Made by a program: the position numbers and the translations under genes
Part shown: piece by piece, positions 37,924-50,397 of the stretch
How positions within the stretch are numbered: the stretch's first letter is position 1
Layout: each line of letters begins with the position of its first letter
The notes under the pieces: generated by a model
Told to the model about the DNA's origin: nothing
Databases searched by the model: none
What the model saw: the letters and a program-made list of their open reading frames with translations, nothing else
Source: Bacillota bacterium
Lineage (GTDB): Bacteria; Bacillota; UBA5301; Bu52
Length of the DNA: 64,000 nucleotides
Direction: 5' to 3'
NCBI GenBank assembly: GCA_014896355.1
Contig: JADBKO010000001.1
Coordinates: forward strand, 1-64,000

Positions 37924-38991
37924 ATGTGGGGAATTGAGCTCTTCGCCTTTTTTATTCCTTTGGTCCTCATTCTTGTGGTCCTGTTGGTCATCCTGAATTT
38001 CATCCCGCTGGGGCTATGGATTTCGGCGCTGGCTGCCGGGGTCCATGTGGGGATCATCACCCTGATCGGCATGCGCCTGCGCCGGGTGCCGCCGGCGCGG
38101 ATCATCCTGCCCCTCATCAAAGCGGTGAAAGCCGGGCTGGAAGTGGGCGTGGACAAACTGGAGGCCCATTACCTGGCCGGGGGCAACGTGGACCGGGTGG
38201 TGGATGCCCTCATCGCCGCCCACCGGGCGGAGATCAAGCTGACGTTTGAGCGGGCGGCGGCCATTGACCTGGCAGGGCGCAACGTGCTGGAAGCGGTCCA
38301 GATGAGCGTGAACCCGAAAGTCATCGAGACCCCTCTGGTTTCCGCCGTGGCCAAGAATGGCATCGAACTGCGGGTCAAGGCCAGGGTCACCGTGCGGGCC
38401 AACATCGACCGCCTGGTGGGCGGCGCCGGTGAAGCCACGGTCATCGCCCGTATCGGCGAGGGCATCGTAACCACCGTGGGCTCCGCCGTGGACCACAAAG
38501 AAGTCTTGGAGAACCCGGACCGCATCTCCCGGACCGTGCTGAGCAAGGGGCTGGATGCGGGCACGGCGTTCGAGATCCTTTCCATCGATATCGCCGATGT
38601 GGATGTGGGCCGCAACATCGGCGCCCGCCTGCAGATGGACCAGGCGGAGGCGGACAAAAACATCGCCCAGGCCAAGGCGGCGGAACGGCGTTTCGCTGCC
38701 GAGGCGCGGGAGCAGGAAATGAAGGCCATGACCCAGGAGATGCGGGCCCGGGTGGTGGAGGCCGAGGCCGAAGTGCCGAAGGCTCTGGCCTACGCGTTGC
38801 GTGAAGGCAAGTTGGGCGTGATGGATTATTACCAGCTGCGGAACATCCTGGCGGATACGCAGATGCGGGAATCCATGGCGCGGCTGGCCCCGCCGGAAGA
38901 ACCGATGCCGCCGGCCCAGGGAGAAAACCCGCCGGAGGGGCCTGAACGCGGTGGCACGGGACCGGCCGGCCCTGGCGGCGGCATTCGCTAG
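37924..38991 (+). CDS. floA: Flotillin-like protein FloA
   Basis: A 355-residue membrane scaffold that organises functional membrane microdomains. A hairpin-like hydrophobic N-terminus (about 5-28 and 33-50) anchors it; the SPFH/PHB-like region ([32 protein letters not shown]-type sequence) and the alanine/glutamate-rich coiled coil ([21 protein letters not shown]) follow. The last 35 residues are Pro/Gly-rich. AGGAGG at 37911-37916 supports ATG 37924. Works with NfeD in Bacillus. Confidence 0.95.
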
Positions 38992-39015
38992 GGAGCCGGC
39001 AAGGGGGCATGCGAC

Positions 39016-39546
39016 ATGGCTTCCCGTCACGAAAAAGGGCCGGACTACGCGCTGGAACTGCGGCGAGCCCTGGCCGGCATCCTGGGAACGCCGGACCCGG
39101 AAGGGGGCGGCAGCTGGCCGCCGCTGAATCTTCCGGACTGGGTCACGGGCCGCAAGCCGGAGAACCGCGATCGGGAGGAGTCCGCCTCCGAGGCTGCCAG
39201 CGCTCCTGAGGACGGTGAAGAATTTCCACAGCCCCCGGAGGAGGCTGGCAGCGAGAGTCCCCGGCCCCCCTCGGAGGCACCGGAGAGCCCCGAGGGGGAG
39301 GGAGCGCCGGCGGAAAGCTCGTCCGGAAAAACATCCGGCGGAGTGGAAGCCCGGCCGGCGACGGGTGCCCCGGGCCTGCCCGCTGCAGCTCCAAACCTGC
39401 AAGCGGCGGAGCGGTTCCAGCTCGCCCGCCCGGGCCTGCCTTTGGAGCCTACGGATGTGCTGCGGGGGCTGGTGTGGTCCGTGATCCTGACGCCGCCTCC
39501 TGGCGTGCAATGGGATCGGTGGCGCTGGCGGAGGTCCAGGCCCTGA
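39016..39546 (+). CDS. Unrecognised acidic protein between floA and yqfC
   Basis: A 176-residue protein I cannot assign. The N-terminus (KGPDYALELRRALAGILGTP) could form an amphipathic helix. Residues 45-130 are Pro/Glu/Ser/Gly-rich and probably disordered. The C-terminal part, PTDVLRGLVWSVILTPP, recalls a short hydrophobic motif (roughly WSEILGPP) that I remember from hypothetical proteins of other Clostridia; this is a memory-based comparison, not a search. GGGGG at about 39004-39008 precedes ATG 39016. It occupies the place of yqfB in Bacillus but does not resemble it. Confidence 0.6.
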   Translation: MASRHEKGPDYALELRRALAGILGTPDPEGGGSWPPLNLPDWVTGRKPENRDREESASEAASAPEDGEEFPQPPEEAGSESPRPPSEAPESPEGEGAPAESSSGKTSGGVEARPATGAPGLPAAAPNLQAAERFQLARPGLPLEPTDVLRGLVWSVILTPPPGVQWDRWRWRRSRP

Positions 39547-39644
39547 GGGCCCGCAGTGATGTTCGCCCTCCGGCGTGTGGGGCGCAATGGGAGCAGGCAG
39601 GCTGCCCCGCGGGCGGCGGGGCGGCTTTGGCTGCGCTGTTCTTT

Positions 39645-39686
39645 TGCGTTCCCGTCCTGGCATAGTGCGTTCCCGCCCCGGCATAG
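39645..39686 (+). repeat. Two tandem 21-bp direct repeats upstream of yqfC
   Basis: Units at 39645-39665 and 39666-39686 share TGCGTTCCCG and CGGCATAG-type ends and differ at two positions. They are noncoding and lie in the 183-base gap before yqfC. The repeat places two GCATAG boxes 21 bases apart. Confidence 0.85.
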
Positions 39687-39689
39687 ATT
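39660..39689 (+). promoter_or_regulatory. Sigma-E type promoter for yqfC-yqfD
   Basis: GCATAGT (39660-39666, end of repeat 1), 15-base spacer, CATAGATT (39682-39689, end of repeat 2). It matches KMATATT-N14/15-CATACAnT with one mismatch in each box. Transcription would start near 39697, before GGAGGG at 39718-39723. yqfC and yqfD belong to the sigma-E regulon in Bacillus. Confidence 0.55.
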
Positions 39690-39729
39690 GGGGGGAGAGT
39701 CCAGTCTTGGCCGGGACGGAGGGAGAACC

Positions 39730-40104
39730 TTGGAATGGGCGTTGCCGGCGTCGCGGCACCGCAATGGCCCCGGGCCTGGTCCGGACCGGGAGCCTCCTTC
39801 CGGGCGGGGCACGGAGGATAATCTGCGGGCCTGGGCTGAGAGGGCAGCCGGCTGGCTGGACCTTCCCGGCGAGGCCGTGTTGAGCCTGCCCAAGGTCACC
39901 GTGATCGGGTTCCGGCAGGTTCACGTGGAGAATCACCGGGGAGTGGCCAAGATCGCCCCCGAACAGGTCCAGGTGCGGGTCCCCCAGGGGGTCATCACCA
40001 TCCACGGGCAGAAGCTGGCGATCGGCGCCATCAGCCGCGACTGGGTGGTGGTGGACGGGCTGGTGGAGCATCTGGATTTCGGGCAAGGGGGCGGCCCGAG
40101 GTGA
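39730..40104 (+). CDS. yqfC: Sporulation protein YqfC
   Basis: A 124-residue protein; the conserved part begins near residue 38 (WLDLPGEAVLSLPKVTVIGF) and continues RQVHVENHRGVAKIAPEQV to the end, matching the family of about 90 residues. The first 35 residues are an unconserved Pro/Gly-rich leader. TTG 39730 is chosen because GGAGGG lies 6 bases upstream and the predicted promoter is just before it. The function is unknown beyond expression in sporulation. It overlaps yqfD by 4 bases (GTGA). Confidence 0.85.
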   Translation: MEWALPASRHRNGPGPGPDREPPSGRGTEDNLRAWAERAAGWLDLPGEAVLSLPKVTVIGFRQVHVENHRGVAKIAPEQVQVRVPQGVITIHGQKLAIGAISRDWVVVDGLVEHLDFGQGGGPR

Positions 40105-41501
40105 CCGGCACCGGTCCTGCTGCCCGTCTGTGGTTATTCCTGAATGGCTATGTTATAATCAAAATCAGCGGGGCCCGTCTGGAGCAGTTTGTTAACGCTG
40201 CTGCAGCCAGCGGGGTCTCGCTGTGGCATATCCGTCGCTTGGGCAGCGACGTTTTGGTGGCCAAGACGCCGTGGGTAACGTTTGCCAGGATCCGGCCGTT
40301 GTGCCGCCGTACAGGTTGCCGCGTTCGAATCTGGCGGCGGCGTGGTTTGGTTTTTTGGCTGGCACGGCTCCGGAGCCGCCGTTGGTTTGCGGCGGGCGCC
40401 GCCGTGGCTTTGTTGCTCCTGTGGGCCCTTTCCGGCCGCATCTGGGTCGTGGATGTGGAAGGCAACCGGAAGGTGCCGGGGTTGCTCATCCGCCAGGCCG
40501 CCGCAGAAGCAGGTTTGCATATCGGTGCAGCCCGGGGCGCGCTGGACCCCGCTGAGGTGGCTGCCGCCGTGCAGCGGCAGGTGGACGGCGTGGCCTGGGC
40601 CGGGATCCAGATGCAAGGAGTCCGGGCCGTGATCCAGGTGGTGGAGGCCAGGCAGCCCGACAGAGCTGCCGGGGTGCGTTCCGCCCACCTGGTGGCCGCC
40701 CGCGACGGTTTAGTCACGTCGGTGGTGGCTCTGCGGGGGCTTCCGCTGGTGGTCGAAGGCGAGACGGTAAGGGCAGGCCAGGTCCTGGTCAGCGGCATTG
40801 TGCCGGAATGGTTGGCGGCACTGGCTGGACTGGTGGGCAGCCGGCCGGAAGGGCCGCCTTCCGCGCAGGGCGAGGAGTCGGCAGGACCGGTCCCTCCTCC
40901 TGCTGGCCGGGAAGGTCCAGTGGCGGTCCGTCAGGGTGAGTTATGGTATACGGCGGCACAGGCCCGGGTGGAGGCCCGGGTCTGGGTGACCGGGCGCCAG
41001 CAGGTCCCCCTGGAGGAGGCGGTCCTGCTTCCCACGGGCCGCATCCGCCACAAAGCGGGCTTGCAGATCGGGAACTGGCAGGCAGAGCTGGCATGGCCCT
41101 GGCGGCCCTTCGCCCAGGCGCTGGTCCATCAGGGCAGCCGGGAGATCCGGAAACCCTGGCCCGTCCGGCTCTACTGGGGCCGGGACGAGGAGCAGGAGCG
41201 CCACTGGCGCCGCCTCACTCCGGCAGAAGCCCGGCTACAGGCGTTGCGCCAGGCGCAACAAAGGGCCGGCGCCCAGGTGCCCGCCGGGGCACGCATCCTC
41301 TCCCGGCAACAGGCCGTTCGATACGGGAGAGGCGGGCGGGGAGCGTACGCAGAGGCAGAGGTCACCCTGGAGCTGGAGATGGATATCGCCTCCGTCCAGG
41401 CGGTGCCCGTGGGAGCCCCGGTTCCCACGGCGGTTCTGGAGAAATACGGACCACGGCCCCAGCCGGCGGGGGAACCTGGCCAGGCCCGGACAGGCCGATG
41501 A
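40101..41501 (+). CDS. yqfD: Sporulation protein YqfD
   Basis: A 466-residue membrane protein with the family's N-terminal LNGYVIIKISGARLEQFVNAA, the WHIRRLG segment, one transmembrane helix (about 97-113) after a run of arginines, and a POTRA-like start VVDVEGNRKVPGLLIRQA. The extracytoplasmic region contains an insertion (about 250-275, PEGPPSAQGEESAGPVPPP). GTG 40101 overlaps the yqfC stop, so the pair is translationally coupled. Required for normal sporulation in Bacillus; mechanism unknown. Confidence 0.92.
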   Translation: MTGTGPAARLWLFLNGYVIIKISGARLEQFVNAAAASGVSLWHIRRLGSDVLVAKTPWVTFARIRPLCRRTGCRVRIWRRRGLVFWLARLRSRRWFAAGAAVALLLLWALSGRIWVVDVEGNRKVPGLLIRQAAAEAGLHIGAARGALDPAEVAAAVQRQVDGVAWAGIQMQGVRAVIQVVEARQPDRAAGVRSAHLVAARDGLVTSVVALRGLPLVVEGETVRAGQVLVSGIVPEWLAALAGLVGSRPEGPPSAQGEESAGPVPPPAGREGPVAVRQGELWYTAAQARVEARVWVTGRQQVPLEEAVLLPTGRIRHKAGLQIGNWQAELAWPWRPFAQALVHQGSREIRKPWPVRLYWGRDEEQERHWRRLTPAEARLQALRQAQQRAGAQVPAGARILSRQQAVRYGRGGRGAYAEAEVTLELEMDIASVQAVPVGAPVPTAVLEKYGPRPQPAGEPGQARTGR

Positions 41502-49167: not shown

Positions 49168-50397
49168 ATGAGACGAGGCACTGAGTGGCGGGTCATCGCC
49201 ACTCTGGCGGTGGTAGGGTTGTTTGCCGTGGCACTGGCCAGCCTGCCCATCAATCTGGGGCTGGACCTGCGCGGCGGGGTCCATGTGGTTCTGCAGGCCC
49301 AGCCGGAACCGGGGCATCCCATCACCCGGGACATCATGGACCGGGCCCGCAGCGTTTTGGAACAGCGGGTCAACGGCCTGGGGGTGGCGGAGCCCGTCAT
49401 CCAACTGAAGGGAACCGACCAGGTGGTCGTGGACCTGCCGGGGATCAAGGACACCCGCCAGGCCGTGGAGGTCCTGGGGCAGACGGCGGTCCTGGAATTC
49501 AAGGATCCCGACGGGAAGACCATTTTCAAGGGTGACCAGCTGGCCGACGCCATGCTCTCGGCGGACCAGTTTGGCCGTCCGGCGGTCTCTTTCAAGCTTA
49601 AGCCGGAAGGCGCCCGTAAATTCGCCCAGATGACCAGCGCCAACGTGGGCCGGCAGGCTCCCATTGTGCTGGACGGAAAGGTCATCTCCGATCCCGTCAT
49701 CCAGACGGCCATCACCGGTGGAGACGGGCAGATCACCGGCAACTTCAGCATGGATGAGGCCAAACGCCTGGTGACGCTGTTACGGGCCGGCGCCCTGCCG
49801 GTGCCGCTGAAGGTGGTGGAGAACCGCAGCGTGGGGCCTTCCCTGGGCAAGGATGCGGTGGATAGCGGCATCCGCGCCGGCATCCTGGGCCTGGTCCTGG
49901 TGATCCTGTACATGATCTTCTATTACCGCCTGCCGGGGTTCGTGGCAGATGTGGCCCTGCTGCTCTACGGGGTCATGGTGCTCGGCGCCATGGCGGCCGT
50001 GCACGCCACGTTGACCTTGCCGGGCATCGCCGGCTTCATCCTCTCTCTCGGCATGGCCGTGGACGCCAACGTGCTGATCTTCGAGCGGGTCAAGGAGGAG
50101 CTGCGCAGCGGCAAGCGCCTGCGGGCAGCCATCGACGCCGGGTTCGACCGGGCGTTGCCCAGCATCCTGGACTCCAATATCACGACCCTGCTGGCAGCCG
50201 GCGTTCTGTTCTACTTCGGCACCGGCAGCATCCGGGGCTTTGCTGTGACCCTGGGCATTGGCGTGATTTTGAGCATGTTCAGCGCCATCACGGTGACGAA
50301 GGTGTTCCTGAACCTGATCGTGGACCGGGATCCCGACCGCTATGTGCGGCTGTTCGGCTTTGAACCTGTCACGGCCCGGCCAAAGGAGGCGCGCTGA
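49168..50397 (+). CDS. secD: Protein translocase subunit SecD
   Basis: A 409-residue membrane protein that uses proton motive force to complete secretion. One N-terminal helix, the P1 domain beginning NLGLDLRGGVHVVLQ, and five C-terminal helices with IAGFILSLGMAVDANVLIFER are present. A run of G residues (about 49155-49160) precedes ATG 49168. secF follows after 3 bases. Confidence 0.97.
   Translation: MRRGTEWRVIATLAVVGLFAVALASLPINLGLDLRGGVHVVLQAQPEPGHPITRDIMDRARSVLEQRVNGLGVAEPVIQLKGTDQVVVDLPGIKDTRQAVEVLGQTAVLEFKDPDGKTIFKGDQLADAMLSADQFGRPAVSFKLKPEGARKFAQMTSANVGRQAPIVLDGKVISDPVIQTAITGGDGQITGNFSMDEAKRLVTLLRAGALPVPLKVVENRSVGPSLGKDAVDSGIRAGILGLVLVILYMIFYYRLPGFVADVALLLYGVMVLGAMAAVHATLTLPGIAGFILSLGMAVDANVLIFERVKEELRSGKRLRAAIDAGFDRALPSILDSNITTLLAAGVLFYFGTGSIRGFAVTLGIGVILSMFSAITVTKVFLNLIVDRDPDRYVRLFGFEPVTARPKEAR

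Follow-up and report, generated by a model that had tools for sequence, protein, structure and literature searches.

Did a tandem repeat upstream of a sporulation gene create the promoter of that gene, or did it arise within a promoter that already existed? The question is raised by two adjoining 21-bp units upstream of yqfC in the window, the 64-kb stretch of contig 1 analysed here, from a 2.62-Mb genome in 128 contigs (~65% G+C). The units span 39645-39686, are identical at 19 of 21 bases (90%), and differ at two positions, both C/T:

39645..39665, plus strand: repeat unit 1, TGCGTTCCCGTCCTGGCATAG (self-comparison and Tandem Repeats Finder)
39666..39686, plus strand: repeat unit 2, TGCGTTCCCGCCCCGGCATAG (self-comparison and Tandem Repeats Finder)

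With a Tandem Repeats Finder score of 70, this is the third strongest distinct array of the window, where no second 21-base unit with a 19/21 match at a shift of 21 was found. The 2.62-Mb genome holds no further copy of the unit with up to two mismatches, the nearest other match being one site with three, and the sole occurrence of GCATAG-N15-GCATAG without mismatches in the window is this repeat. Among the yqfC upstream regions of 110 relatives, the best matches at shifts of 18-24 reached 10 to 16 of 21 bases, and 19/21 was seen in the window only. The two adjacent units described by the earlier, sequence-only reading are therefore real and without another close copy; the interval it gave, 39645-39689, starts correctly, but the repeat stops at 39686 and the remainder takes in the ATT of a -10 box.

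The genes around the repeat lie in the order NfeD-like protein, FloA, a 176-residue open reading frame, yqfC and yqfD, the last two of which are:

39730..40104, plus strand: yqfC, TTG start after GGAGGGAG; YabP domain (PF07873, 5.8e-13)
40101..41501, plus strand: yqfD; YqfD domain (PF06898, 3e-86), with TIGR02876 under its cut-off

The yqfC product also matches TIGR02856 (spore_yqfC; 4.6e-20), at 71.3 bits slightly below the cut-off of 77.8. The gene after the repeat is thus yqfC, as the sequence-only reading had it, and its assignment to the sigma-E sporulation regulon agrees with the control of yqfC and yqfD in B. subtilis (PMC3533761, PMC517825); both are sigma-E genes in C. difficile as well (PMC3789822). 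Here yqfD overlaps yqfC by 4 bases, and the two are probably carried on one transcript. The order in B. subtilis is yqeZ-yqfA-yqfB-yqfC-yqfD (PMC3498285), and the Pro/Glu/Gly-rich 176-residue frame (39016-39546), which gave no Pfam or NCBIfam match, stands at the place of yqfB. No Rfam match was obtained in 38900-40200. The conserved YqfC domain begins at about 39832, which leaves ~34 extra residues (39730-39831) before the core when the TTG at 39730 is taken as start, and the -10 box lies ~175 bases ahead of the LDLP motif, compared with mostly 75-110 in relatives. A possible alternative in-frame start is the CTG at 39823 (GGAGG-ATAAT-CTG, 39813-39825). The leader would be about 33 bases long from the TTG or about 126 from the CTG, and the choice of start leaves the promoter unaffected.

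The candidate promoter consists of the following elements:

39660..39666, plus strand: GCATAGT, present-day -35-like box, formed by the copied -10 word and the first T of unit 2 (3.8 bits)
39682..39689, plus strand: CATAGATT, phylum-wide conserved -10 of the yqfC promoter (14.0 bits)
39697, plus strand: predicted transcription start, ±2 bases, placed by its distance from the -10 box

Compared with the B. subtilis sigma-E consensus, CATAGATT agrees with CATACAHT at 7 of 8 positions and GCATAGT with KMATATT at 6 of 7, and the spacer of 15 lies at the edge of the 13-15 range of sigma-E; boxes and spacing, with one mismatch per box, are as the sequence-only reading claimed. The genome contains a single match to the strict pattern KMATAKT-N14..16-CATASAHT, and a reversed control contains none. 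A looser pattern, MATA-N16..18-CATANANT, has four matches against three in the control, so the consensus by itself is no proof of a promoter, and the case is carried by position and conservation.

To describe conservation, relatives' yqfC upstream regions were oriented and anchored on a conserved LDLP-type protein motif, leaving out two regions without a usable anchor and locus L099, and a two-box matrix was trained iteratively with the B. subtilis sigma-E consensus as seed and the window excluded. The class sample comprised seven genomes, all related to the window's genome at class level; a YqfD search of genome contigs for closer relatives returned one remote locus only. Sites scoring 6 bits or more were present in 105 of the 110 upstream regions, with the motif gT(A/C)ATnTT-N14-GCATAnATT at loci spanning 26% to 69% G+C. 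Seeding from the consensus biases such a matrix, but it did not impose the narrow spacer, the extra G before CATA, the T after it or the similar distance to the gene. The spacer was 14 in 100 of 107 relatives' sites (about 90%), and 15 was rare (3/107). The window's CATAGATT fits the GCATAnATT of the phylum motif, and the identical word occurs in L014, L007, L009 and others; on the conservation check suggested by the sequence-only reading, a -10 of this GCATAnATT form precedes yqfC in 105 of 110 relatives in the phylum.

With the phylum matrix, the 14.0 bits of CATAGATT are reached at only 3 of ~128,000 window positions. GCATAGT, although of the KMATATT type, is only moderate at 3.8 bits (within the top 1% of positions in the window). 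The whole site scores 13.0 bits, the second best in the 64 kb on both strands; when the window is cut into 1502 overlapping 170-base segments, four reach this score, its own included. Only a minus-strand site at 49623 ranks higher in the window; its -10 box is weak.

The genome encodes sigma-E itself (393.6 bits; cut-off 348.6), and sigma-E-type sites precede spoIVA (L070; TCATAAC-13-CATATATA), spoIIIAA (L082; GCATATT-N14-CATATATA) and spoIID (L090; TTCTAGC-14-CATATGAG). The word CATATATA is also the -10 of most spoIVA genes within the class. No good site was found by the matrix before yabP in this genome (L165; best 5.3 bits), which makes the matrix an incomplete detector; the yabP genes of six class relatives all have a site (10.9-17.0 bits). 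Given the motif scores, the presence of a sigma-E gene and the sigma-E control of yqfC-yqfD in B. subtilis and C. difficile, a sigma-E promoter is the natural reading, and its predicted place directly upstream of yqfC is well supported. In gene order, sigma-E control and a promoter directly before yqfC, the locus resembles B. subtilis yqfC-yqfD and C. difficile CD2443-CD2442, whose promoters likewise have a CATA-type -10 and an ATA-type -35. Unlike in those species, the -35-like word here copies the -10 inside a 21-bp repeat, and the boxes are 15 bases apart instead of about 14. Sigma-K promoters have a very similar -10 (CATA-), but their -35 needs AC (PMC3789822) at a spacing of 14-16 bp from the -10 (PMC517825). 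Such a promoter is unlikely at this place, as no AC lies 14-16 bp before the -10, where 39660-39666 reads GCATAGT.

What the repeat did to this promoter can be approached by removing it. For a pair produced by duplication, the flanks fix the earlier state, save the two C/T positions, as GCTGTTCTTT, one unit and ATTGGGG. Deleting either unit in silico joins CATAGATT, again across a spacer of 15, to a further element:

39639..39645, plus strand: TTCTTTT, putative ancestral -35, its last T being the first base of unit 1 (8.4 bits)

The collapsed version, TTCTTTT-N15-CATAGATT, scores 17.6 bits compared with 13.0 for the present site, a value that none of the 1502 segments of the 64 kb matches. By itself, TTCTTTT is among the top 0.05% of window positions with the matrix from relatives, and it stands at the -35 place upstream of yqfC in L061 and L051. 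In addition, TCTTATTCCGGCCCGGCCTGGCATAGG of L006, a same-class locus of high G+C, closely resembles the window's TCTTTTGCGTTCCCGTCCTGGCATAG and aligns with unit 1 and its left flank across -35, spacer and -10. The collapsed score, the occurrence of TTCTTTT in relatives and the L006 alignment make it most likely, on these comparisons, that the duplication fell within a working promoter. The collapsed version also outscores the present one when the matrix is built only from high-GC or only from low-GC relatives, and the cost of the duplication with phylum matrices is 4 to 5 bits; a matrix from six same-class genomes, however, reverses the ranking (18.1 bits for the present site, 15.5 for the collapsed), so that a stronger older promoter is not a secure prediction. 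TTCTTTT may have a further role. A strong hairpin at about 39578-39652 (-57.8 kcal/mol, z -2.5), then TTCTTTT, is possibly the terminator of the upstream nfeD-floA operon, with TTCTTTT as its T-tract overlapping the presumed old -35.

We therefore favour, with a probability of about 0.72, an ordinary mother-cell (sigma-E) promoter of yqfC-yqfD that would have been altered by one tandem microduplication. Before the duplication, the promoter would have been TTCTTTT-N15-CATAGATT. A stretch of 21 bp, running from the final T of the -35 through the entire spacer to CATAG, the five opening bases of the -10, would then have been doubled head to tail, moving the intact -10 21 bp, or two helical turns, away from the old TTCTTTT. 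GCATAGT, a copy of the -10 word, would now occupy the -35 position at a permitted 15 bp. Sigma-E RNA polymerase would use the site and, because sigma-E takes GCATA in either box, transcription would most likely still start near 39697 from CATAGATT. We infer the order of these events, the use of the site by sigma-E RNA polymerase and the choice of -35.

The sequence-only reading had instead proposed that the duplication built the promoter where there was none, by setting two CATAG copies at the right distance. It is true that the duplicated word supplies both boxes and that the present pair scores well, best with the same-class matrix. Yet 105 of 110 relatives have a yqfC promoter without the repeat, the repeat does not include the ATT of the -10, and the single-copy state, far from being promoter-free, is itself a good promoter in silico (17.6 against 13.0 bits), which makes creation improbable. 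The part of the proposal that stands is the duplication origin of the identical CATAG words, since 19 of 21 bases agree here and at best 16 of 21 in the 110 relatives; slippage, as that reading suggested, may have been the mechanism. The use of the same word in both boxes is no sign of duplication as such. GCATA occupies the -35 of 6 of 107 relatives' yqfC sites, including same-class L011 (GCATAAT-N15-CATAGAAT), and both boxes of spoIIIAA in this genome; in L011 and spoIIIAA the CATA words lie ~20-21 bp apart, as at yqfC here, but no tandem repeat was seen, and the likeness stems from the sigma-E consensus. Word identity is thus weak evidence of duplication in general, and it is the identity of the spacers that shows duplication at this locus. 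Because sigma-E accepts GCATA, any 21-bp duplication taking in the -10 core supplies a -35-like word unaided.

Alternatively, the duplication might have doubled the start sites, giving a pair of overlapping sigma-E promoters, offset by 21 bp and both in use: TTCTTTT-N15-CATAGTGC, starting near 39676, and GCATAGT-N15-CATAGATT, starting near 39697. The upstream pair would rely on the following box:

39661..39668, plus strand: CATAGTGC, degenerate -10 that a second, upstream promoter may use (pair total 7.4 bits)

This pair, whose -35 is excellent and whose CATAG core is kept, is the second best near the gene, but the conserved ATT is missing from its -10 (3.4 bits versus 14.0) and equally weak sites are common in the window; we consider its use unlikely, if slightly less so than promoter creation. 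That the repeated TGCGTTCCCG part is a doubled regulator binding site and not a by-product of the duplication would suit cooperative binding, as a near-identical pair two helical turns apart, and would recall the repression of B. subtilis yqfCD by SpoIIID (PMC517825). We regard it as highly improbable, given that the unit has no other genomic copies and that the relatives' spacers, read by eye, share no word. Equally hard to credit is an assembly or sequencing artefact: the genome is assembled in 128 contigs, but the units differ at two positions, the pair is placed within a 105.7-kb contig, and ordinary reads are long enough to cover a tandem pair of 42 bases.

Judged from its conservation among relatives, the predicted sigma-E promoter of yqfC is ancestral, not new, and the locus departs only slightly from a known promoter type. 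As a by-product, the yqfC promoter can be pictured across the phylum as a single motif with a spacer of 14 in about nine of ten sites. A literature search for promoters made by tandem duplication returned nothing pertinent. At this locus, duplication within an existing promoter has apparently given the -35 and the -10 the same word, and word identity must be tested against the ancestral promoter before the birth of a promoter is claimed. More speculatively, and at rather long odds, sigma-E promoters may be tolerant of duplication because GCATA is accepted in both boxes, at a distance of about 20-21 bp. Duplicating spacer and -10 in tandem would then restore a functional promoter, though one of different strength, and yqfC expression could be tuned or switched between strains as a unit is gained or lost.
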